In this document: positions 2,574-42,464 of the stretch, in pieces | How positions within the stretch are numbered: the stretch's first letter is position 1 | How the letters are laid out: each line of letters starts with the position of its first letter | Assembly: GCF_004135405.1 (NCBI RefSeq) | Contig: NZ_CP035491.1 | Coordinates: 2,976,001 to 3,040,000, forward strand | Source: Agromyces protaetiae | Lineage (GTDB): Bacteria; Actinomycetota; Actinomycetes; Actinomycetales; Microbacteriaceae | Length of the DNA: 64,000 nt | Reading direction: 5' to 3' | Position numbers and translations under genes: made by a program | The notes under the pieces: generated by a model | What the model was told of the DNA's origin: nothing | The model's input: the letters and a program-made list of their open reading frames with translations, nothing else | Databases searched by the model: none

Positions 2574-3716
2574 ATGGCACGAAGGGCATCACGCACCACT
2601 CCGAATCACTTGGCAGAGCCGCAGCGCGGCGCAGGTTTCACGATCGTCGAACTACTCATCGTCATCGTGGTTATCGCCATCCTTGCGACAATCACGGTCG
2701 TCTCTTACAACGGTGTCGTGAATCAGGCGAATGAGACTGCAGTGAAGAGCGATCTCCAAACGTTGACGAGCATCCTTGAGCTGGACAGCATCACTTCGGG
2801 CAGTTATCCAGCCACCGCCAATGCCGCAAACGGAGGCCGAGGGCTCGCCCTGAACGGCGGGCGCACTGTCGCCTACACATCGACGGGCGATACGTATTGC
2901 GTCGCCGTGACGGGCGGGTCGATCACCTTCTCATACGACTCAACTACCCGGCGCACGGTTAGTGGCGCCTGTGACGTTGGTGGCGGAGGTGGCGGAGGTG
3001 ATGGCACTATTGCCGACGGCAGCGTCATTCAAACCATCACGGCAGCAAATTGCCTGACGACCCGTACGCGGGCCGTTGACGCCCGGGACAATCACACCTA
3101 CTGGGTGCAGAAGCTAGCTGATGGCAAGTGTTGGATGCTCACTAATCTTGGCTACGCCGGGGGCGGCACGAATACCTATGCAGACGTAAAGTCCTTGGCG
3201 AACGGCACAGGGGGCTCCACAACCTACACAGCCGCTCGGTACTACGTTGTTCCAGGTACGACAAACTTCACGACGGAGCCGACCGCACCATCTATCTCAA
3301 CCGACGGCACAGGCCAGTACGGCTACTTCTATAATTGGTGTGCCGCCATGGGTGCCCAAACCAGCACGAGTGCTTGTGCAAATGCGACAACTCCGACGCC
3401 AAGTACAACCATCTCGATATGTCCCGCTGGCTGGCGATTACCTAGAGTCAGCAGTGGCGATTTCAGCGCTCTGAATACCGCCATTAATGGTGGCTCAGCG
3501 ACGACAGATGCCGGGCTGCGTACAGGATGGCTCACGCAGCGGACAGGCTGGTGGGACAGTGGGTTTAAGTATCTGGGTAGCGACGGCAACTACTGGTCGT
3601 CGACTCAGAGCTCAGCTACCAATGCCTACCAGCTGAACTTCGGGAGTTCTTACGTCTATCCGGCTGATGATGACTATAAACTCTACGGGTTAGCTGTGCG
3701 GTGCGTTGCCGTATAG
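2574..3716 (+). CDS. Type IV pilin-like protein with FISUMP-type domain
   Basis: A 380-residue protein. Residues 1-21 are a short basic prepilin leader ending in Gly21. Phe22 begins the mature N-terminus, FTIVELLIVIVV, with the conserved Glu at position 5 (Glu26) followed by a hydrophobic helix to about residue 45. After a short globular region there is a Gly-rich linker (about 136-143). Residues 150-380 carry motifs of the FISUMP family (TIGR02145): TYWVQKLADGKCWMLTNL-like block, YGYFYNWCAA, ICPAGWRLP, NYWSSTQ and a terminal VRCV. The domain has many Cys residues, as expected outside the cell. The gene stands alone: no prepilin peptidase, assembly ATPase or platform protein is in the window. 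Base composition is visibly poorer in GC than its neighbours, suggesting separate transfer. Probably a minor pilin or surface adhesin. Confidence 0.85.
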   Translation: MARRASRTTPNHLAEPQRGAGFTIVELLIVIVVIAILATITVVSYNGVVNQANETAVKSDLQTLTSILELDSITSGSYPATANAANGGRGLALNGGRTVAYTSTGDTYCVAVTGGSITFSYDSTTRRTVSGACDVGGGGGGGDGTIADGSVIQTITAANCLTTRTRAVDARDNHTYWVQKLADGKCWMLTNLGYAGGGTNTYADVKSLANGTGGSTTYTAARYYVVPGTTNFTTEPTAPSISTDGTGQYGYFYNWCAAMGAQTSTSACANATTPTPSTTISICPAGWRLPRVSSGDFSALNTAINGGSATTDAGLRTGWLTQRTGWWDSGFKYLGSDGNYWSSTQSSATNAYQLNFGSSYVYPADDDYKLYGLAVRCVAV

Positions 3717-3850: not shown

Positions 3851-4318
3851 TCAGCTGACCGTCATGCCTCCTTTGAGGCTTCCCTGGTTGATGTGTGCGA
3901 AGTGCTGAAGGAGCACCCCGCCGCTGACACGTGCGTCACCGTCGATGCGGGCGTGGTCGGCGAGCGTCACCTGTCCGCGGACGATGGCGTCTCCTCCGAT
4001 GCGGCTGCTCCCGCGAAGGGTGCATCCATCGGCGACCACTGCGTTGTCTTCGACCACGGACTCATCGAAGAGTCGGACAGAGCCGACGACGATCGCGCGC
4101 CCTCGCACCATGGCGCGGAGGCCAACATGGACCGTCGACGCAACGTGCGCGCTGAGCGCGACGAGCCCGCCACCGTTGAGGTGAGATCGATAGGGCACGC
4201 CGTGGATGTCCACCACCGGGCTTTCGTCGAAGCTCACTCGCCACGGGCCGAGTACTGTCGCAAGCTCGTCGCTCGTAACTGCGGTCTGGACTTCACTGAC
4301 AGGTAGTTCTTGCGGCAA
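3851..4318 (-). CDS. Left-handed beta-helix (hexapeptide-repeat-like) protein
   Basis: From the TTG at 4318 the protein has 155 residues. That start has AGGGGGA about five bases upstream. The longer frame to an ATG at 4396 would place the start inside a hairpin. Residues 50-150 have the periodic small/hydrophobic pattern of left-handed parallel beta-helices (AIVVGSVRLFDES, AVVADGCTLRGSSRI, AIVRGQVTLADHARIDGDAR). Such repeat proteins are frequent on prophages and mobile elements and are related in fold to hexapeptide transferases, but no acetyltransferase catalytic signature is evident. No signal peptide. Function unknown. Confidence 0.7.
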   Translation of the reverse strand: MPQELPVSEVQTAVTSDELATVLGPWRVSFDESPVVDIHGVPYRSHLNGGGLVALSAHVASTVHVGLRAMVRGRAIVVGSVRLFDESVVEDNAVVADGCTLRGSSRIGGDAIVRGQVTLADHARIDGDARVSGGVLLQHFAHINQGSLKGGMTVS

Positions 4319-4360
4319 ATCGCTCCCCCTAATTCCTCGGGTATCTCGTTCCCTGCAGTT

Positions 4361-4418
4361 GCAGGAGCGACGCCACCACTTCACGCGCATTCTCACGCGG
4401 TGGTGTCGTCACTCCTGC
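4361..4418. repeat. Long imperfect inverted repeat
   Basis: GCAGGAG (4361-4367) pairs with CTCCTGC (4412-4418). After one mismatch, 4369-4379 pairs with 4400-4410 at 10 of 11 positions, and CGCG (4384-4387) pairs with CGCG (4396-4399). About 21 base pairs form in 58 bases. It lies between two minus-strand genes, just upstream of the beta-helix gene's preferred start. It could be a terminator or attenuator for the gene above, although no U-run follows on the minus strand. Confidence 0.55.
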
Positions 4419-6109: not shown

Positions 6110-6598
6110 GTGACCACCACCATCCCGAGCGCGCAGCTCGAGGCGATCACCCGCCTTGAGCTTGCCGCCGACGCGCTGTGGAAGGCGCTCCGCGCCGTGC
6201 AGCACCCGGACCTGAGCTTCACCGGGGGCGCCGTTATCGCGCCATCGGGCCGCAAGCACCTGGCCGAGATCCACAGCACGCTGCACGCCATCGAGCAGTC
6301 CATCCACCCCAGCGATCAGCCGATCGACGAGCCGCCGACTGATGAGGTCGAGCCGCCGCCGAGCCTGGACGAGTTCATCCTGAGCGACTCGGAACACCGC
6401 ATCGTGCAGTCCGTGGCGCTCAACCTCGCAACTGACCTCGCGTCGGTGTTCCGCGGTGCCCGTGCGCATCTGACGCTCCACCCGAGCTTCGCCACGGACC
6501 CGGAGATCACCAACCTCGTCCTTGGCGCCGCCCTCGCTGAGTCCAGCCGCTTGGGCCGCCGCATCGCCACGCTCCTCGACGCCAAGTCCGCCGCATAG
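6110..6598 (+). CDS. Hypothetical protein of the element
   Basis: A 162-residue protein starting at the GTG at 6110, preceded by GAGGAG about seven bases upstream. The open frame extends back to 5435 opposite another gene, but that part looks like a shadow. It has an N-terminal helical domain (ITRLELAADALWKALRAVQ), a Pro/Glu-rich acidic linker around residues 68-85, and a C-terminal helical domain. No membrane segment or recognisable motif. A hairpin terminator follows at 6615-6644, so it is probably a single transcription unit. Confidence 0.6.
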   Translation: MTTTIPSAQLEAITRLELAADALWKALRAVQHPDLSFTGGAVIAPSGRKHLAEIHSTLHAIEQSIHPSDQPIDEPPTDEVEPPPSLDEFILSDSEHRIVQSVALNLATDLASVFRGARAHLTLHPSFATDPEITNLVLGAALAESSRLGRRIATLLDAKSAA

Positions 6599-6699: not shown

Positions 6700-7479
6700 A
6701 TGACGTTCTCAGTATCGCGCCGCGCACTCAAGCTCGGCATCACCGCCACAGCTTTGGTGGCTACCTCCGCCGCCTTGGCGGGCTGTTCGACCCACGCCTC
6801 CGGCGACCTCGGTCGCCTGCAGGCGGTGCTCGCCACTTGTCCGACGGACCAGCAGCTCAACGTCTATGACGCCGTCGATGGCACGGGAACGACCCGGGAC
6901 GACCAGATCGCCCGCGAGTACCTCAAGTACCTCGAAGCGGACGTCGAGAAGGCCGCCGTCTGCGGTGGACATGTGTCGATCGTGGCGTTCGGCACCAACT
7001 CCGTGACCGCCCCGATCTACGAGGCGGACCTGTCCGTGCCGGGCTCGACCGACATCGCCCGGCTCCGCCGCGTCCCCGACGTCGTCGCGGAGACGATGAA
7101 GGAAGTCGCCGGCAACTACCAGTCCGCGATCGAGTTGCTGCCCCAGGGCGGGACCGACGTCACGGGACTGCTGCGCCTGCTCGGGGAGGCCCGCGACCTG
7201 CGTCCGGACCTCCAGCTGCAAGCGACCATCCTCACGGACGGCCTCACTAACCAGGGCGTGGTCATCAACCACGAACTGAGTGACGCGGAGGCCACCAGCC
7301 TGGCGGACTCGGTCAGCGTGCCGGATCTCTCGGGCGCGACGGTGTCAGTGGTCGGGATCGGTCGCGTGGCCGGCGACCCGCTGTCGAGCGGCTTCATCGA
7401 GGGGCTCAAGGCCTTCTACACCCGCCTCTGCGGCAACGCGAACGCCGACAAGTGCCTCGTCGTGACGGACGGGCGGTGA
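6700..7479 (+). CDS. Lipoprotein with vWA-like domain
   Basis: From the ATG at 6700 (AAGGAAAGGAAAC upstream) the protein has 259 residues. It has an Arg-containing signal peptide and a lipobox LAGC with Cys29, so it should be lipid-anchored outside the membrane. The mature part resembles a vWA-type fold. The strand LNVYDAVDGTGTT places D60-x-T62-x-T64 where the metal-ion site motif DxSxS normally sits, and a later block, LQLQATILTDGLTN, supplies a possible second Asp. It overlaps the next gene by GTGA at 7476-7479 and heads a three-gene set ending with a second vWA protein. This suggests a membrane-linked complex on both faces. The vWA assignment is inference from motif and context. Confidence 0.7.
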   Translation: MTFSVSRRALKLGITATALVATSAALAGCSTHASGDLGRLQAVLATCPTDQQLNVYDAVDGTGTTRDDQIAREYLKYLEADVEKAAVCGGHVSIVAFGTNSVTAPIYEADLSVPGSTDIARLRRVPDVVAETMKEVAGNYQSAIELLPQGGTDVTGLLRLLGEARDLRPDLQLQATILTDGLTNQGVVINHELSDAEATSLADSVSVPDLSGATVSVVGIGRVAGDPLSSGFIEGLKAFYTRLCGNANADKCLVVTDGR

Positions 7480-8558
7480 GGACCGTGGCTCACGCTCTCG
7501 ACCCGGCGACGGCCGCGCTCGAAGCCGAAGCCCTCGCTGAGCAGATCGCGCTGCAACCCGTCGACGAGGCCCACGCCATGGCCCGTCCGAGCGGGATCGG
7601 CGAGACCTACCTGGAGCTCGAGCGCCAGGCGTTCGAAGACGAGCAGCCGCCGCTGTTTGACGCCTCCGGGCTGGAAGCGGCCCGCGAGACAGCCAAGGAG
7701 GCGGCGGGACTCACTCCCGCCGCCTCCGCGGCACAGCGCCTCCTCGACGGCCATGCACCGCTTCTGCACGCCGCCGAAGCACGCAGCCTCCAGGTCCGTG
7801 ACGCACTCTCCGCGTTCCGTCGCCGCGCACCCGGCGCCTACAAGTGGCACCTGCTCACCAAGGCGGGATTGCTCGTCGGGGACGTCACGACGCTGGCGGG
7901 GTCGTTCATCTGGCTCGGCGAGGAACCCGTCCTCGCGACGGTCATGGCGGTCAGCGCCGCCGTCGCCACGGTCACGGCCGGATTGTCGGGGGCGGAGGTG
8001 CGCGACGCACGCAACCGCGCACGCCGAACCCGTCCCTCGGAAGCACTCACCGAAGGACAGCGCGGGTACGCGCACCTCTTCGAGGCACCCGACCCCGGCT
8101 GGCCCTTCGTCCGAGCACTCGCCTGGGTGTCCGTCGGCGTGGCCGGCGTCATCGCGGCGGCGATCTTCGCACTCCGGTCGAGCATCGAAGACCCGCTCGT
8201 CGGGCTGGTCTTCGGCGGCATCGCCGCAGCCATCGCGGCAGCCAGCTGGATCGAGTCCTACATGTACGCCGACGACATCGCCGACCTGCTCGACGCCACC
8301 GACAAGGACTACCGGGTCGAACTCGCCCGTGCGCAGCAGCTCGCCAACGCTCCCAGCTGGCAGCGCCGCGAGCAGGCGCTCGTCGAGGCAGACTCCATCA
8401 CCCGCGAGAACCAAGCCCGCGGGGAAGCAGCACGCCTGCACCTGCGGGCACTGCGCTTCGGGATCCTGCGCCGCAACCCGCAGATCGTCGGGCACGGGTA
8501 CGCCAGCGAGCCGACCGCCATCGGACAGACAACGCGCCGAGGCGGTGGTGCCAAGTGA
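7476..8558 (+). CDS. Four-helix membrane protein between two vWA genes
   Basis: A 360-residue protein. The GTG at 7476 overlaps the previous stop (GTGA); the next in-frame GTG at 7485 is an alternative. The N-terminal 115 residues are soluble, Ala/Glu-rich and helical. Two hydrophobic hairpins follow: about residues 130-165 (LLVGDVTTLAGSFIWLG and ATVMAVSAAVATVTAGLSG) and 208-250 (VRALAWVSVGVAGVIAAAIF and LVGLVFGGIAAAIAAASW). The C-terminal 100 residues are helical, basic and probably cytoplasmic. It overlaps the downstream vWA gene by GTGA at 8555-8558. No named family recognised. Its place suggests it links the external lipoprotein to the cytoplasmic vWA protein. Confidence 0.7.
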   Translation: MRTVAHALDPATAALEAEALAEQIALQPVDEAHAMARPSGIGETYLELERQAFEDEQPPLFDASGLEAARETAKEAAGLTPAASAAQRLLDGHAPLLHAAEARSLQVRDALSAFRRRAPGAYKWHLLTKAGLLVGDVTTLAGSFIWLGEEPVLATVMAVSAAVATVTAGLSGAEVRDARNRARRTRPSEALTEGQRGYAHLFEAPDPGWPFVRALAWVSVGVAGVIAAAIFALRSSIEDPLVGLVFGGIAAAIAAASWIESYMYADDIADLLDATDKDYRVELARAQQLANAPSWQRREQALVEADSITRENQARGEAARLHLRALRFGILRRNPQIVGHGYASEPTAIGQTTRRGGGAK

Positions 8559-9280
8559 CTCCGCACCTCCAGCCATCGGGAGTTCTGCCCGGCGGCATCC
8601 TCCCGCTCCGACCGGAGCGAACGATCCGCGAGCCGTACGTCGAGCTGGGCTGGCCCGGGTTCGAGTCCAAGACTCCGAGTCTCGATCTGCTGCTCTTTGA
8701 CGACTCCGGCTCGGTCACGGCACCACACGGCACCGACCCTGTCGGGAACCGCTTCGCCGAAGCGTGGAACGCCATCCGCCTTGTCGCGGAGTGGACACAC
8801 ACGTCACGGGCCAAGGTCGCGGTACTGCACTTCGACCACCCCGTCGGAGCCAGCGAAGTCACGGCGCTGAACCACCGGCGTCTCGAGGATTTGCTGCGCC
8901 CGTCGCTCGCCATCCCGCGCGGCGGGCTCGGGACCAGCGACCTGCTCCCGAGCCTGGAGGCCGCCGAGATCGTCGCCTCTGAGCACCCAGAGCACGACGT
9001 CCGCCTGACGGTCTTCTCGGACTTCCAGCTCACCGACCCGGACCCACGGGTGGCGTTGACGGCGCTGGAAGCCTTCCCCGGCGCAGTGCATGCCGTGGTG
9101 CTCAGCGGCGGTGCACCCCGCGATCTCGACGGCGCCGCCAACGTCACGGTCACACCGCTTCGCGCCAGCGATCCGCCCGGCAGCTTCGCCGCCGCCATCC
9201 ACCGGTCGCTGACCACTACGCGGCGAGGCCACCGGTACTCGGTGCTGCACCGCGGAACCAGTACGGGGAGGCGGCCGTGA
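8555..9280 (+). CDS. vWA domain protein
   Basis: A 241-residue soluble protein starting at the GTG that overlaps the preceding stop. LDLLLFDDSGSVT contains a canonical metal-ion-dependent adhesion site, D49-x-S51-x-S53. The Thr in the GGLGTSD segment and the Asp in TVFSDFQLTD are in the positions expected for the other two metal ligands. There is no signal peptide, so it is likely cytoplasmic. vWA domains usually mediate metal-dependent protein binding. Here it closes a three-gene unit with a vWA-like lipoprotein and a membrane protein, all coupled by four-base overlaps. Confidence 0.75.
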   Translation: MTPHLQPSGVLPGGILPLRPERTIREPYVELGWPGFESKTPSLDLLLFDDSGSVTAPHGTDPVGNRFAEAWNAIRLVAEWTHTSRAKVAVLHFDHPVGASEVTALNHRRLEDLLRPSLAIPRGGLGTSDLLPSLEAAEIVASEHPEHDVRLTVFSDFQLTDPDPRVALTALEAFPGAVHAVVLSGGAPRDLDGAANVTVTPLRASDPPGSFAAAIHRSLTTTRRGHRYSVLHRGTSTGRRP

Positions 9281-9432: not shown

Positions 9433-10101
9433 ATGACCACCACTACGAAGACCGCAGCCGCTCCCCCGGCACACGGTCAGAAGACGGCCGCCCGGCCGCA
9501 GCGCTACGGCGTCATCGCGGCGGACCCGCCGTGGAACGTCCAGCAGGTTGGGAAGCTCGGCGCGAGCGAGCACTACGACCTCATGACCCTCGATCAGATC
9601 AAGGGCATGGGCGACGCGGTGCAGGCCCTGGCCGAAGACAACGCCCACCTCTACCTGTGGGTCACGAACGCGACGCTCCGCGTCGGCTACGACGTCATGG
9701 AGGCGTGGGGCTTCACGCCTCGCTCCCCGCTGACGTGGGTCAAGCCGCGCTTCACGCTCGGCAACTACCTGCGCAACGCCACCGAGCACGTCCTGTTCGG
9801 CACCCGCGGCAAGGCACCCGTGCAGTTCAAGAGCCAGCCGACGTGGGTGTTCGCCCCGCTTCAGGAGCACTCGGTGAAACCCGACGAGATGTACTCGATC
9901 ATCGACCGTGTCTCCGGGCGCGACACCAAGAAGCTCGAGCTCTTCGCCCGACGCCGCCCGCCGGCCCCGAACTGGTCGGTGTGGGGCAACGAGATCGAGA
10001 GCGACGTCACGCTCGCCCCGTGGGGCTACCCCGTCCCGAGCGACTTCGGCCGTCAGGACGACGTCGTTCCCGAATCCGGCGACGGAGAAGGCGAGGGGTG
10101 A
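9433..10101 (+). CDS. MT-A70 family N6-adenine DNA methyltransferase
   Basis: From the ATG at 9433 (GGGAGG seven bases upstream) the protein has 222 residues, usual for phage and element MT-A70 enzymes. It has the catalytic motif D31-P-P-W34 in GVIAADPPWNVQQ, the helix YDLMTLDQIKGMGDAVQALA, and the later blocks LYLWVTNATLRVGYDVMEAWGF and TEHVLFGTRGKAP with KLELFARR near the end, all typical of the family. These enzymes transfer a methyl group from S-adenosylmethionine to adenine N6. No restriction endonuclease gene adjoins it, so it is a solitary enzyme that probably protects the element or marks its DNA. The frame extension back to GTG 9277 contains a promoter-like segment and is not counted. 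Confidence 0.85.
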   Translation: MTTTTKTAAAPPAHGQKTAARPQRYGVIAADPPWNVQQVGKLGASEHYDLMTLDQIKGMGDAVQALAEDNAHLYLWVTNATLRVGYDVMEAWGFTPRSPLTWVKPRFTLGNYLRNATEHVLFGTRGKAPVQFKSQPTWVFAPLQEHSVKPDEMYSIIDRVSGRDTKKLELFARRRPPAPNWSVWGNEIESDVTLAPWGYPVPSDFGRQDDVVPESGDGEGEG

Positions 10102-10104
10102 GCC

Positions 10105-10329
10105 GTGTTCGGCAGCGACAACAACAAGCACGACGACGAGAAGCCTGAGACGATCATGCAGAAGTTCTTCCGCGCGTGTCTGCTGGGGCTTGCCGGAGTC
10201 TTCGTACTCTGGCTGGCGATCCAGCTGCTGGCCCAGTTCTGGGGGTGGCTGCTGCTGGCAGCCGCCCTCGGCGGGCTCGTCTGGGCGACCATCTGGTTCG
10301 TCCACTGGCGTCGCGACCGGCGGTGGTGA
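10105..10329 (+). CDS. Small membrane protein
   Basis: A 74-residue protein starting at the GTG at 10105, three bases after the methyltransferase stop. An acidic/Lys-rich N-terminus of about 20 residues is followed by hydrophobic residues 21-68, enough for two short transmembrane helices around an AQFWGW turn, and a basic tail WRRDRRW. It could be an accessory of the transfer machinery, but no family is recognised. It shares the transcription unit of the methyltransferase. Confidence 0.55.
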   Translation: MFGSDNNKHDDEKPETIMQKFFRACLLGLAGVFVLWLAIQLLAQFWGWLLLAAALGGLVWATIWFVHWRRDRRW

Positions 10330-10489: not shown

Positions 10490-10729
10490 ATGACCCATCA
10501 CACCCCCAAGCGTCGCCCGTACACTCGCCGATTCCGGCAGGTCTACGTCGCGACCGCCCGCCGCGAACGCACCCCTGAGACGTTTGCGCGCATCATTACC
10601 AACGCCGCCCTCGGCACGGCACAACGCGAAGCCGACGCCCGCGCCGACCACGCAGCCCGGCTGAGCCCCCAGCGGGCTCCCGACAGTCCGGCGCGGCTGC
10701 CGACTGGCGAGGAGGCAGGCCATGCCTGA
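10490..10729 (+). CDS. Small basic hypothetical protein
   Basis: A 79-residue protein with a near-perfect ribosome binding site (AAAGGAGGTGA) seven bases before its ATG. It is very rich in Arg (RRPYTRRFRQVYVATARRER), which suggests nucleic-acid binding or a partner role for the ATPase that follows. It overlaps the coupling ATPase gene by eight bases, so the two are translationally coupled. Small basic proteins are often found directly upstream of TraG-like genes on actinobacterial elements. No family recognised. Confidence 0.6.
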   Translation: MTHHTPKRRPYTRRFRQVYVATARRERTPETFARIITNAALGTAQREADARADHAARLSPQRAPDSPARLPTGEEAGHA

Positions 10730-12872
10730 GCCCTTCGTCTTCACCCGGCTCTATCTGCCCCGCCCGATCATGGCCGAGACGGTCACGAACCTGATTCGCC
10801 GCCTGACCGGCTCCGACGCACCCCGACCACTCTCACTCGAGGTACGGGCGGTGGACGACGGCATCCACTACATCCTGGGGTGCACACCGACCAGCGTGCA
10901 TAAGCTGCGGCACCTGCTGCGGAGCCTCTCCCCTGACGTGGTGTTCGCCACCACCACCCGCGCGCCACTGGCGGCCGCACGGCGCGTCGAGGCACGTCAG
11001 AACGGCATGCCCATCGGCGCGCCGGATCCGGAGCCGCTCACCGCCGCCATCTATGGCGCGCTGAGTGTCCGGAGGGCAGGCGAGAAGCTCGTGCTACAGG
11101 TCGTTCTCGGCCGCGCGTCGGCGCCGCAATTCGTCCGTCCCGATGCACCTGACCCGCTCCAGCCGATCGGGTCACGGCTCTGGCACGGCGTCAAGAAGGC
11201 TGCGCCCGAGACGCGCCGCAAGCTCCAGGACCACGCCGCCGAACCTCGGCTCCACGTCGCGCTTCGCATCGGCGTCGACGGCCCCGACCCAAAGCGCCGC
11301 GAGGCCCTGACGCACGGCCTGTTCGGCAGCTTGCAGGGGCTGGAGGCGATAGGGGTGCAGTTGCGGCTGGTTCCCGAGTCGCCCCGTGAGCTGCATCTCG
11401 GATCCTCCAAGCACGCGCGTCTTCAGCTGACGGCGTCTGAACTCGCGCCGCTCTTGGGCTGGCCGCTCGGAGAATCCAACCTCCCGGGCGTCGACCCCCT
11501 CCATCCGAAACGTCTGCCGGTGCCGAAGGACGTTTCCGCGAAGGAGAGTGTCTTCGCCCTCGGGACCGCGGCCGGACCCGAGCGACCGATCGGCATCACT
11601 GCCGAGGCGCGTCTCAGCCACGTGTCCGTGCTGGGCCCAACCGGCGCAGGCAAGACCGAGGCTGTGCTGGTGCCATGGCTGCTGTCGGACGTTCGAACGG
11701 GCCACCCCGCCTGCTTCATCGATCCGAAAGGGCAGGGCGTCGAATACGTCCTCGACCTGCTCACGACGGAGGAAGGCGAACGCGTCGTCCTCTATGACCC
11801 GTCGGATCCCGAGGGCACGGCCGGCTTCAACCCGCTCGACGCTCGCGGCCGTGACGCCTACGCCGTCGCCGACAGCGTCCTCGCCGTCTTCAAGTCCGTC
11901 TTCGCCCAAGGCTGGGGCCCGCGCACGGAGGACATCCTCTACGCGTCCGTGCTCACCCTGGCGATCGACGGACAGCGCCGAGCAGCCCCGCACACGCTCC
12001 TCGATATCCCGAAGCTGCTCACCGATCAGGCGTTCCGACGCACCGTCACGCCTGCCGTCGCGGGTGAAGCGGAGATCGCCCGATTCTGGGCGCGCTACGA
12101 GGCACTCAAGCCTGCCCAACAGGAGAACGAGATCGCGGCTCCGATGAACAAGCTGCGCAGGTATCTCATGCGCCGCGGCGCGGCGGCCATCCTGGGCCAG
12201 GCAGACCCGCCATTCCATCTCCGTGACATTTGGAAGGGCGATCGCATCGTCCTTGTCAGCGTCAACGAAGCCTTGGCCGGGACCGAGACCGCACAGCTCA
12301 TCGGCGGGCTCATCTGTGCCGAAGTGTTCATGGCCGCCGGGGAGCGTGCCACCGAGACGAACCCGAAGAAGCGCCCCGGCTTCGTCTACGTCGATGAGGT
12401 CAGGAAGTTCCTGCGCCTCCCTGTGCCGTTGGAGTCGGCGCTCGAGATATCCCGCTCCTACGGCGTCGGCTGGGCACTCTTTGGGCAGGGCTTCTACCAA
12501 ATGGGCAGCGAGCTCGCCGATGCCATCGAGATCAACACGAAGAGCAAGGTCGTCTATGCAACCAGTGCGAAAGAGGCCAAACGCATCGCCAGCTCGAGCC
12601 CGGCACTCGCCGCCGCAGATATCCAGGAGCTTCCACAGTACGAGGTCTACGCCGACCTTCTGACAACCAAGGGGTCAAGCGGCTGGATGTCCGCCCGAAC
12701 CTTGGTGCCACCTGCACGAACGGGGCACGGCCGAGACCTCCGCGCTGCGCTTAGGAAGCGCCAGTCCTCGGCGGCAACTACGCCGCCGCTGACCCCAGCT
12801 GTCCAGCCTGAGCCGGTGTCTGTTGCGCCCTCGTTCGACTCCTCCTCACCAGTGAAGCGGAGGCGCTCGTGA
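10722..12872 (+). CDS. TraG/VirD4-like type IV coupling ATPase
   Basis: A 716-residue protein. The N-terminal 290 residues form an unrecognised alpha/beta region without clear membrane helices. The C-terminal two thirds are a RecA-like DNA-translocase domain: Walker A GPTGAGKTEA at about residues 305-314, FIDPKGQGVEYVLDLL, the FNPLD motif, Walker B FVYVDEV at about 554-560, and LFGQGFYQM with a sensor region after it. Coupling proteins deliver the relaxase-DNA complex to the mating channel. The lack of an N-terminal membrane anchor is common in actinobacterial versions, where neighbouring small membrane proteins may anchor it. It follows a small basic gene with an eight-base overlap. The extreme C-terminus is Pro/Ser-rich and disordered. 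A plain DUF87-type ATPase with another role is the main alternative. Confidence 0.85.
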   Translation: MPEPFVFTRLYLPRPIMAETVTNLIRRLTGSDAPRPLSLEVRAVDDGIHYILGCTPTSVHKLRHLLRSLSPDVVFATTTRAPLAAARRVEARQNGMPIGAPDPEPLTAAIYGALSVRRAGEKLVLQVVLGRASAPQFVRPDAPDPLQPIGSRLWHGVKKAAPETRRKLQDHAAEPRLHVALRIGVDGPDPKRREALTHGLFGSLQGLEAIGVQLRLVPESPRELHLGSSKHARLQLTASELAPLLGWPLGESNLPGVDPLHPKRLPVPKDVSAKESVFALGTAAGPERPIGITAEARLSHVSVLGPTGAGKTEAVLVPWLLSDVRTGHPACFIDPKGQGVEYVLDLLTTEEGERVVLYDPSDPEGTAGFNPLDARGRDAYAVADSVLAVFKSVFAQGWGPRTEDILYASVLTLAIDGQRRAAPHTLLDIPKLLTDQAFRRTVTPAVAGEAEIARFWARYEALKPAQQENEIAAPMNKLRRYLMRRGAAAILGQADPPFHLRDIWKGDRIVLVSVNEALAGTETAQLIGGLICAEVFMAAGERATETNPKKRPGFVYVDEVRKFLRLPVPLESALEISRSYGVGWALFGQGFYQMGSELADAIEINTKSKVVYATSAKEAKRIASSSPALAAADIQELPQYEVYADLLTTKGSSGWMSARTLVPPARTGHGRDLRAALRKRQSSAATTPPLTPAVQPEPVSVAPSFDSSSPVKRRRS

Positions 12873-13050: not shown

Positions 13051-13902
13051 GTGACCGACACTTGGACACCTACCAGAGTGCGAGAGCTGGAGAGCTTACT
13101 CACCGAACGCGACGGCCACATCCTCGAAGACCTCGAACGATTCCGCGCGCTGTCGACCCGCCTCATCCAGCGCCTGCACTTTCCAGCCGGACTCCACGGA
13201 CTCCATGCCACCGTCCCGACGGCAACCCGCCTCGCGAACCGGGTGCTGCTGCGGCTCGAAGCTCATGGCCTCATCGCCCGCATCGACCGACGCGTCGGCG
13301 GCGCCTTACGTGGCTCCGCAGCCACCACGTGGCACCTGGCGGCCACCGGTGAACGGCTCCTCCGAGCACGTCGAGGGGAATCAGGGAGGCGACGCTACGT
13401 CACTCCCTCCCGCGACTTCCTCGCCCACACGCTCGCCGTTGCGGAGTTCGCAGGCGCGACAAAGGAATCGGAGTTGCGTGGCGAGATCGACGTGCTCGAA
13501 CTCGACACCGAACCGTCTTGCTGGCGACCCTTCCACGGGCCAGTGGGCGTCGTGACGCTCAAGCCAGACCTGTTCACCGTTGTCGCGAACGCTGACGTCG
13601 AAGCTCACGTCTTCGTAGAGATCGACCGCGGCACCGAGCACCTGCCCGCCGTGATCAAGAAGTGCCGCACCTACCAGCAGTACCGACAGACCGGCCTCGC
13701 ACAAGCGAGCAGCGGCGTCTTCCCGGCCGTGCTCTGGGTAACCCCAGACGCCGAGCGGGCACGCAAGCTCCGTACCGCCATCCGAAGAGAACCCGACCTT
13801 CCGGCGGACCTCTTCACCATCTGCGAGGAAGCCGAAGCGCTCACTGCGCTCACGGTCTTCCTCGCCCCATCACCAACTTCAAGAAAGGAGGTTTCATCAT
13901 GA
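13051..13902 (+). CDS. Replication-relaxation family protein
   Basis: A 283-residue protein from the GTG at 13051, with CAGGAGGTG nine bases upstream; the longer frame back to 12940 crosses the hairpins and is rejected. The N-terminal half looks like a winged-helix DNA-binding domain (LANRVLLRLEAHGLIARIDRR, then WHLAATGERLL, the usual LxxxGxxxL pattern). The C-terminal half has VEIDRGTEHLPAVIKKCRTY, the hallmark of the Replic_Relax family (PF13814), with a nuclease-like Glu-x-Asp-Arg-Gly motif. Members are found on actinobacterial plasmids and integrative elements near TraG-like genes and are thought to help plasmid replication or transfer. It overlaps the next gene by ATGA. Confidence 0.8.
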   Translation: MTDTWTPTRVRELESLLTERDGHILEDLERFRALSTRLIQRLHFPAGLHGLHATVPTATRLANRVLLRLEAHGLIARIDRRVGGALRGSAATTWHLAATGERLLRARRGESGRRRYVTPSRDFLAHTLAVAEFAGATKESELRGEIDVLELDTEPSCWRPFHGPVGVVTLKPDLFTVVANADVEAHVFVEIDRGTEHLPAVIKKCRTYQQYRQTGLAQASSGVFPAVLWVTPDAERARKLRTAIRREPDLPADLFTICEEAEALTALTVFLAPSPTSRKEVSS

Positions 13903-14219
13903 CCACCTCACGACAACAGATTCCATTCAACTTTGACTCCACACTCCCGGCCTCGCTCGACCAGGCCGACACCGCGCTCCAGATCCTCGACGACTGGAGC
14001 TACGGCGACACCGACGTCGCCGATGAGGGCATCGCCCGGCTCCTCGCTGCCACCCTGCACGACGGACCCGGCACCGCTCTCGAACACTTCGCCTCAACAG
14101 GCGAACTCGACGCCGAAGCCGCCCTTCGCGAACTCGGACAGGCCACGGTCCCACTCGAACGAGAGGGCTGGGTCGACGCCCTCGGACGCTACATCATCAA
14201 CGGAGGACACCGATCATGA
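13899..14219 (+). CDS. Small acidic hypothetical protein
   Basis: A 106-residue protein starting at the ATG at 13899 after a strong AAAGGAGG site; the ATG overlaps the previous stop (ATGA). It is acidic and helical, with Asp/Glu-rich segments such as LQILDDWSYGDTDVADEG, and is DNA-mimic-like in charge. It overlaps the next gene by ATGA at 14216-14219. Small acidic proteins at this place in element operons may be antirestriction or accessory factors, but no specific family is recognised. Confidence 0.6.
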   Translation: MTTSRQQIPFNFDSTLPASLDQADTALQILDDWSYGDTDVADEGIARLLAATLHDGPGTALEHFASTGELDAEAALRELGQATVPLEREGWVDALGRYIINGGHRS

Positions 14220-15043
14220 GCGAGCTCCAACCCACCCCGCACACTCCTGAGGTCCGTCCCGCCCCTGAACGGGAGAGCCCGGACTGGCGTCGCCTTATCG
14301 TCGCCCGCGATCGATTCCTTGACCGCATCGCCGACGGCCTCGCGCGCGCCAACGCAGAGCACGACGAGATCGACGAACCCACCGCTCGCTGCATCGCCCA
14401 CGTGCTCGGCCGAGCCTACGGGCGAGAAAGCGCCCTCGCAGGCTTCGGACGCACCGGCGAAGGCCACTACCTGAGCCTGCGCGACGAGTACCTCGACCTC
14501 TACGGCGACGAGCAGGCCGATCCGATCACCAAGGAGATGATCGACTGGCTCGGCACCTACCTCGTTCAGCGTGAGAACACCGGCACCGGCCGGCGCTTCA
14601 TGAACGAGCACCAGCCGCCCGAGCTCGATCAATTGCTGGTGCGCACCAGCGTGCGAATCGGCGAGGGACGCTTCATCGTGAACGTCCCCGCGAGCTGGCA
14701 CAGCGGCCACGAGGACGAGCTCGTCGAACTGCTCACCACGCTGCAACTCGACCAGGACGAAGCGCTCCAGGCGTTCCTATCGCTGCCCGATGTCAGCGCT
14801 GGGACCGACGACATCATGGAGAGCTTCCACGAGGCGTTCACCGGAACGTACCGAAACGAGGAGGCAGTGCTCCGCGCCCTCAGCCCGCTCGAGGACTGGG
14901 AGAACAGCCTCGCGGACTGGTGCATCGACAACGGCGTCGAACCCGAAGCCCTCGACTGGAACTACGAACCGCTGATGGTGCGACTCCGCGACATCTACGA
15001 CGTCGTCGAAGGAAAGGAGGTGCTCCATGTCTTCGTCAAGTAG
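14216..15043 (+). CDS. Acidic protein, possibly ArdA-like antirestriction
   Basis: A 275-residue, strongly acidic protein coupled to the preceding gene by ATGA. The C-terminal region (about 200-275) resembles ArdA proteins. MESFHEAFTGTYRNEEA recalls their Phe-x-x-x-Tyr/Phe-x-Gly-x-Tyr segment, and LMVRLRDIYDVVEG followed by VLHVF recalls the ending with a Tyr and an HVF motif. ArdA mimics DNA and inhibits type I restriction enzymes, helping incoming elements establish. The high Asp/Glu content fits DNA mimicry. The N-terminal 130 residues do not match ArdA in any way I can see. The call is tentative. The 3' end overlaps the start of the next gene by 17 bases. Confidence 0.4.
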   Translation: MSELQPTPHTPEVRPAPERESPDWRRLIVARDRFLDRIADGLARANAEHDEIDEPTARCIAHVLGRAYGRESALAGFGRTGEGHYLSLRDEYLDLYGDEQADPITKEMIDWLGTYLVQRENTGTGRRFMNEHQPPELDQLLVRTSVRIGEGRFIVNVPASWHSGHEDELVELLTTLQLDQDEALQAFLSLPDVSAGTDDIMESFHEAFTGTYRNEEAVLRALSPLEDWENSLADWCIDNGVEPEALDWNYEPLMVRLRDIYDVVEGKEVLHVFVK

Positions 15044-15400: not shown

Positions 15401-17395
<1,995 letters not shown>

Positions 17396-36492: not shown

Positions 36493-36501
36493 CAATGAAT
36501 G

Positions 36502-36619
36502 TCCGGCGGTGTCCTACTCTCCCACAGGGTCGCCCCTGCAGTACCATCGGCGCTGCGAGTCTTAGCTTCCGGGTTCGGAATGTGTCCGGGCGTTTCCCTC
36601 GCGCTATGGCCGCCGAAAC
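36502..36619 (-). rRNA. rrf: 5S ribosomal RNA
   Basis: The minus strand begins GTTTCGGCGGCCATAGCG, contains CCGAACCCGGAAGCTAAG and GATGGTACTGCAGGGG, and ends with GAGAGTAGGACACCGCCGG. This is a full actinobacterial 5S rRNA of about 117 bases. It is the last gene of the operon. The 23S-5S spacer (36620-36811) holds no gene but carries one arm of the 23S processing stem. Confidence 0.97.
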
Positions 36620-36730
36620 TCTAGAACCAACACGTCCCACAGGGTGGGGGTTGGTGGTCTCGGTGCACACACCCCCCGGTTCTTGTGTTTTGGGGTGTGT
36701 GGTTTCTGCTGTGCAGTTGTATGTGTGTTT

Positions 36731-36769
36731 CCGTCTGAAGGGAACCACAGAGTGGACGCGAGAAATCTT
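36731..36769. other. Right arm of 23S rRNA processing stem
   Basis: This segment and 40043-40080 are nearly reverse-complementary over about 38 bases in the transcript, with a perfect 12-bp core (36751-36762 with 40050-40061). They bracket the 23S gene and should form the double-stranded stalk cut by RNase III. Confidence 0.8.
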
Positions 36770-36811
36770 GGCCACCTACACACGCCTTACGAAAACTGTG
36801 TGGGTGTAGTG

Positions 36812-41908
<5,097 letters not shown>

Positions 41909-42464
41909 AAAAAGATTCCCAACCAACCCAAAAAAGCCGGCCGAGGAGTTTGATCTCTGACAGAAAAAACAACTGACTCCAAAGAATCAAAATTGTCCAT
42001 CAATCAAAGGAATCCCACCCGGCAAAACCGGGTCGGGGTTCAAAAAATTGGCATTGAACATAGTGCACGCTGTTGAGTTCTCAAGAAACGGACGCCCCCG
42101 CCTCCACACCAGAAAAACCAGCGCTTCACAACAGGGAACCAAACATTTCCACCACCCGGCCATCCCAACCAAGGGACGCATCCGGACGCTTCAAACACCC
42201 GAGCAAAACACCACTCGACATGTTCGGAACCATCACCACTTGAGAACCAAGCAACGGAGAAGAGAAGAACCTCTCTCAACGCTCCCGGCCCTGTGGGGCA
42301 ACAGATGAATACTTTACGCACACCCCCACCACCCACGCAAACCCACCCCACACCCCGGGCGTGTCGCACCACCACCACACCACAAAACCCCAGAACAACC
42401 CGCAAAAACTTCCTTCAGCTCCCCGACGCCCCTCGGCTTCGCCCGTCCGCCCACTCCCGCACGA
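41909..42464 (-). promoter_or_regulatory. rRNA leader and promoter region
   Basis: No gene is seen in this 556-base region. On the minus strand it contains a TTGAGAACT segment near 42070-42085, like the antitermination and processing boxes of actinobacterial rRNA leaders, directly next to the 5' arm of the 16S stalk (42063-42075). A possible promoter is TTGCGT (42335-42340), an 18-base spacer and TAAAGT (42311-42316). Confidence 0.6.

Follow-up and report, generated by a model that had tools for sequence, protein, structure and literature searches.

Three genes at the head of a transfer-gene cluster

In the window (the whole stretch of 64,000 nt that was analysed), three co-directional genes, here named A, B and C (6700-7479, about 7476/7485-8558 and 8555-9280), precede the backbone genes, the integrase gene and the probable attachment site of a mobile element. 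The features are, in order of position:

6110..6598, plus strand, 162-aa helical protein, upstream of gene A
6700..7479, plus strand, gene A: vWA-like lipoprotein of 259 aa, conserved in five loci
7485..8558, plus strand, gene B: four-TM membrane protein, 357-360 aa; alternative GTG start at 7476
8555..9280, plus strand, gene C: cytosolic vWA protein of 241 aa with a complete MIDAS
9433..10101, plus strand, MT-A70 adenine methyltransferase, the next backbone gene after the trio
10105..10329, plus strand, 74-aa membrane protein (TM74), backbone
10490..10729, plus strand, 79-aa conserved protein, backbone
10722..12872, plus strand, T4SS-type DNA coupling ATPase (PF02534)
13078..13902, plus strand, Replic_Relax protein (PF13814)
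13899..14219, plus strand, 106-aa protein, backbone
14216..15043, plus strand, 275-aa protein, backbone
15401..17356, plus strand, serine integrase (Resolvase/Recombinase/Zn_ribbon_recom; PF00239/PF07508) at the right element end; the start could be 15551
17319..17395, minus strand, tRNA-Pro, the probable attachment site, overlapping the integrase gene end

The product of gene A has a lipobox (LAGC29) in its signal sequence, and the residues SRRALKLG, which lie ahead of the hydrophobic stretch, are reminiscent of a Tat signal; the protein is predicted to be located outside the membrane. An earlier note on this DNA had described a variant metal site of the form D-x-T-x-T, and this is what we read: D60-G-T62-G-T64, accompanied by T152/D153 and D180-G181. 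D60 is conserved in four of the five copies and a Ser or Thr at the +2 position in all five, and D153, D180 and G181 are invariant. The conserved motif pattern makes A vWA-like. A Pfam search with A, however, gave no match, hhalign detected no homology between the profiles of A and C, and the AlphaFold (AF2) model is poor (pLDDT 42; for A and B alike, the input sequences were those of the window and Planctomonas deserti only). Among the structural neighbours of that model, vWA is the commonest fold, with Z scores of 4.5-6.3 (Z values below 8 can reflect merely a common arrangement). On the motif pattern and the model together, a vWA fold in A is likely, though no sequence profile supports it.

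Gene B specifies four hydrophobic segments, the first of which is weak in the window's own copy, in agreement with the four transmembrane helices noted before. The positive-inside rule gives an N-in/C-in topology with large cytosolic N- and C-terminal helical parts, where the loop between segments 2 and 3 (38 residues, seven of them K/R) lies inside by prediction and both outer loops are short (3-6 residues each). The match to SLATT_1 is weak (NCBIfam E 1.1e-4; 22.2 bits versus a curated cut-off of 41); at the loosest setting, it extends to two of four gene B homologues, and no other convincing family was found. MotA_ExbB does not match any gene B copy, and the structure model of B was unusable.

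The product of gene C has neither a signal nor a TM segment. It carries the canonical D-x-S-x-S previously pointed out, within the MIDAS D49-D-S51-G-S53, T127 and D156, all residues of which are invariant in four copies, save for one Thr to Ser replacement. The C profile matches the vWA chain of CLCA1 (6pyo) with an E of 4.9e-6, and a distant homologue (P0015) matches VWA_2 with an E of 3.2e-4, below the curated cut-off. With its MIDAS residues lying in a vWA-like profile match, C is a vWA protein by sequence. The proposal that A and C reside on opposite sides of the membrane, with B between them, agrees with the predicted locations, A outside and C inside.

That all three genes overlap by four bases, as had been claimed, holds for one junction. 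B and C overlap by four bases in each of the three elements in which we found the complete trio (the shared bases are GTGA in the window, at 8555-8558, and likewise in P. deserti, whereas the third copy has ATGA). Use of the GTG at 7476 as the gene B start would give a four-base A/B overlap too, but the aligned starts of the relatives correspond to the window's GTG at 7485, which leaves a 5-nt gap after A; gene B starts with an ATG 2 nt past the stop of A in P. deserti and with an ATG 5 nt past it in the third copy. The A/B overlap in the window is, thus, probably not real.

The presence of an integrase, a coupling protein and a relaxase-type protein beside tRNA-Pro identifies the surrounding DNA as an integrative mobilisable element. 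A search over 57 kb leftward for a repeat of the tRNA-Pro end yielded none of at least 14 bases, and the left element end was not found. A single model for VirB4-type ATPases (AAA_10) gave nothing above cut-off in the whole genome, with a weak match outside the element; the element, therefore, looks mobilisable rather than self-transmissible. The MT-A70, TM74, 79-aa, coupling ATPase, Replic_Relax, 106-aa and 275-aa genes occur co-directionally and in the same order in the P. deserti element, mostly at 75-86% identity (60% for the 79-aa protein), and the serine integrase is 55% identical.

Type I restriction genes, named from sequence resemblance, are present on the element as well. At loci L008 and L009, 9-17 kb to the left of the window, the proteins resembling HsdR and HsdM share 95% and 93% identity with their counterparts in the P. 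deserti element, against just 55% for the specificity-like protein, a sign of target-domain exchange. Another part of the element (window 2574-3716) encodes a pilin-like protein with an N-terminal methylation motif and a Fib_succ_major domain, and the minus strand at 3851-4396 encodes a hexapeptide-repeat (beta-solenoid) protein, which occurs in the P. deserti element (64%) and in locus L040. Elsewhere in the window, the G+C content of 36500-42300 is about 0.56 between flanks of 0.70; no ORF of at least 200 aa is listed there, and the region could be an rRNA operon.

Recurrence of the trio and its place in the element

The trio is single-copy in its own genome (3.68 Mb, one contig). A family-wide search returned one relative, in P. 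deserti, where A, B and C are 66, 56 and 59% identical to those of the window. A third copy, in a third genus (G696, locus L042), sits at the same place; it was found among the elements retrieved with the coupling ATPase, and its A, B and C are 40, 38 and 49% identical. The co-occurrence check that had been suggested earlier, thus, shows the A-B-C order and spacing recurring in the elements of two other genera, and the idea of a conserved trio carried by the element is borne out in three elements of three genera. Small helical ORFs, alike in position, lie ahead of A in P. deserti and L042 as well. Searches of genome contigs with gene A gave a match in P. deserti only and with gene C none; neither plasmids searched by tblastn with A, B and C nor plasmids and phages searched with a distant C gave a match; and viral contigs scanned with A, B and C held no relatives. 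Wide genome samples each contained at most two matching genomes besides the window.

Elements related to that of the window were found with the coupling ATPase in 22 of 349 Microbacteriaceae genomes (about 6%). In these elements the trio, where present, occupies the opening slot of the cluster of transfer genes (MT-A70, coupling protein, relaxase). Upstream DNA was readable at 18 loci, and there the slot before MT-A70 holds a pair of small genes, S and T, in 14 instances (L037-L040, L043-L047, L049-L052 and L054), the trio in three, neither in one (L048, with a 71-aa single-TM protein), and both in none. S is a soluble protein of about 100 aa, and T (about 95 aa) consists of one TM segment and a charged helix; neither has a Pfam match, and a profile search for S in the window's genome found it absent. 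Since the slot opens the transfer cluster and has essentially two fillings, we favour a transfer-linked role over that of ordinary cargo; it is the cargo reading that the slot test weakens.

In a phylogeny of the coupling proteins, the window and P. deserti share a group with the pair elements L037-L040 (100/99), and L042 falls outside. A tree constrained to unite the trio elements is 18 log units worse (AU p 0.052, a marginal rejection), which is suggestive of the trio elements being scattered on the tree. Between the window and P. deserti, the trio (56-66% identity) is less similar than most of the backbone (75-86%); between the window and L042, the two ranges are similar, 38-49% for the trio and 30-48% for the backbone. 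Module exchange between elements is the simplest reading of the tree and identity patterns taken together. At L043 (G190), the MT-A70 is 83% identical to that of the window and the coupling protein 36%, so the methylase gene, too, seems to be mobile between elements.

Two distant loci preserve A and B with an OmpA-domain partner. In G796, which belongs to another class of the phylum and was found with the C profile, an OmpA-domain lipoprotein (P0016; family match E 4.5e-12) is followed by A, B, C and a 43-aa CXXCXGXG-type protein, within a small island that includes an integrase-like gene (named by sequence resemblance; Pfam had no match for the fragment). In G811, found with the B profile, A (E 3.7e-33 against the profile) and B (E 4.7e-19) are followed by an OmpA-domain protein (P0019; family match E 3.4e-9) of MotB-like layout, consisting of one TM segment, devoid of Asp, and the OmpA domain. 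The G811 neighbours are ordinary chromosomal genes, and C is absent nearby, a weak C-profile match being located on another contig. Further class-wide samples yielded no additional distant copies. The 43-aa protein directly after C (L059:9800-9928) shows weak matches to the Anti-TRAP and DnaJ zinc domains; as a functional clue, it and a neighbouring 462-aa protein in G796 led nowhere.

Over the five loci, C is present in four and OmpA in two, and the A-B order is kept in all. A and B, being constant, form the core, with C and OmpA as variable partners, and recurrence in two other genera, with A and B also found in two further lineages of the phylum, makes the trio more than chance. That the three genes are unrelated neighbours that do not act together is hardly credible, given the same order in three elements, the B/C overlap in all three and the constant A-B order.

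Possible functions of the trio

The products of the trio probably assemble into an envelope-spanning complex of a kind not described before. Our leading reading, which we put forward tentatively, is that this complex, encoded by one of the two alternative fillings of the first slot in mobilisable Microbacteriaceae elements, controls DNA transfer. In such a complex, A would be anchored outside the membrane and bind an acidic or extended ligand via its variant metal site; B would pass on the state of A, received at its short outer loops, to the large helical parts at its cytosolic ends; and C would dock on these ends through its canonical metal site and signal onward to a partner in the cytosol, for which the coupling protein/relaxase machinery encoded nearby is the likeliest candidate. 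Acting as a mating signal, a gate or exclusion, the complex would govern either DNA transfer or incoming DNA. The earlier note had proposed signalling, surface exclusion or defence; what now bears on this choice is the position of the slot next to the transfer genes, the S/T pair that excludes the trio in sister elements, and the OmpA-domain protein accompanying the distant copies. Several observations count against this reading: none of the trio genes matches known transfer or exclusion proteins, the window's genome has no recognisable VirB4-type ATPase by the single model used, A and B occur on the G811 chromosome and the G796 island without transfer genes seen, and a common origin of the trio elements is rejected only marginally on the tree. 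A broader proposal, which we hold with less confidence, is that A and B, an outward-facing vWA lipoprotein and a four-TM transducer, are the core of an undescribed envelope-spanning vWA switch of Actinomycetota that recruits a cytosolic vWA protein, OmpA or both, and that in mobile elements has been wired into transfer or exclusion, trading places with the S/T pair. The OmpA-type, peptidoglycan-binding partner in the distant loci suggests that the ancestral role was probably cell-wall sensing or anchoring.

A close rival, ranking just behind the transfer-linked role and in itself somewhat doubtful, is a phage-defence (abortive) module, in which A would sense envelope damage or phage, B would be a membrane-permeabilising effector and C an adaptor or restraint. 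Members of the SLATT group are predicted to act as effectors of conflict systems by forming pores (PMC7159879), and the weak SLATT_1 match of B points in this direction, albeit with a score far under the curated cut-off (22 versus 41 bits). The sporadic and mobile distribution of the trio and the type I restriction genes on the same element are likewise consistent with defence, and the combination of A and B with an OmpA-type protein recalls the wall-sensing Zorya (PMC11890865). Conversely, PADLOC models do not match A or C and match B only at an E of 0.88, and the searches turned up no effector domain, be it a nuclease, a nucleotide-signal domain or another. The slot, moreover, is contiguous with the transfer genes and has essentially one alternative pair, rather than changing defence genes.

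It is rather improbable that A, B and OmpA represent a host-type complex for envelope maintenance or wall anchoring that was acquired by the element and serves the host instead of the element. The G811 locus, with A, B and OmpA among ordinary chromosomal genes, and the OmpA family matches in both distant genomes would fit such a function, but great rarity in whole genomes is unlike a maintenance system, and in the element family the trio replaces a backbone pair. Far less probable still is a motor driven by protons or ions, of the MotAB, ZorAB or TolQ-vWA type, with B as the stator and OmpA or vWA as the wall-side partner. Pairs of vWA proteins and TolQ-like motors have been described (PMC12204202), and the layout of the G811 OmpA protein is MotB-like. 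However, B has no MotA_ExbB match, the TM segment of the G811 OmpA protein lacks the Asp, its G796 counterpart is a lipoprotein, and neither A (a lipoprotein) nor C (without TM) would supply a transpore helix. We have set the motor aside for want of both the TM Asp and any match to MotA.

Should the complex prove real, it would constitute a vWA device with a face on each side of a monoderm envelope, located at the point where a mobile element governs its own transfer; the parts of which it would consist normally work singly or together with an AAA+ ATPase. The element family amounts to a natural experiment, in which otherwise similar transfer clusters have one filling of the slot or the other, trio or S/T pair, and the function of the slot can be asked directly.

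Comparison with described systems

The earlier note knew of no described system with this layout, and our literature searches (SLATT with vWA, vWA with entry exclusion, and vWA with lipoprotein and defence) gave none either. Conjugative entry or surface exclusion pairs such as TraT/TraS comprise an outer lipoprotein and an inner-membrane protein. The trio shares with them a lipoprotein and an inner-membrane protein encoded beside transfer genes; no sequence relation was found, and these pairs have neither vWA sites nor a cytosolic third protein. Triads of a TerY-type vWA protein, a kinase and a phosphatase feature a cytosolic, standalone vWA protein in a three-gene set, and a related actinobacterial triad has been described (PMC7159879); unlike in these triads, a kinase or PP2C phosphatase gene is absent next to C. 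The MoxR-vWA ternary conflict systems (PMC7159879) have a three-gene layout as well, and their vWA component is thought to grasp a peptide via its metal site, but the gene for their AAA+ partner was not seen near the trio elements, G796 or G811 (in gene lists, with Pfam on selected neighbours).

Zorya, with its ZorA/ZorB core (PMC11890865), resembles the distant A and B copies in joining a membrane protein to an OmpA-type wall-binding partner. Zorya needs MotA/MotB-like subunits (PMC11890865), whereas at the A and B loci B is not MotA-like by sequence, the TM Asp is lacking, no ZorC, ZorD or ZorE was seen, and vWA proteins are found instead. Lastly, the vWA proteins paired with TolQ-like motors (PMC12204202) differ by a transpore helix with a conserved Asp and by their TolQ-like partner, where the trio has a lipoprotein (A), a cytosolic protein (C) and a membrane protein (B) without a MotA_ExbB match; what these systems have in common with the trio is a vWA domain outside the membrane coupled to a multi-TM protein of the inner membrane.
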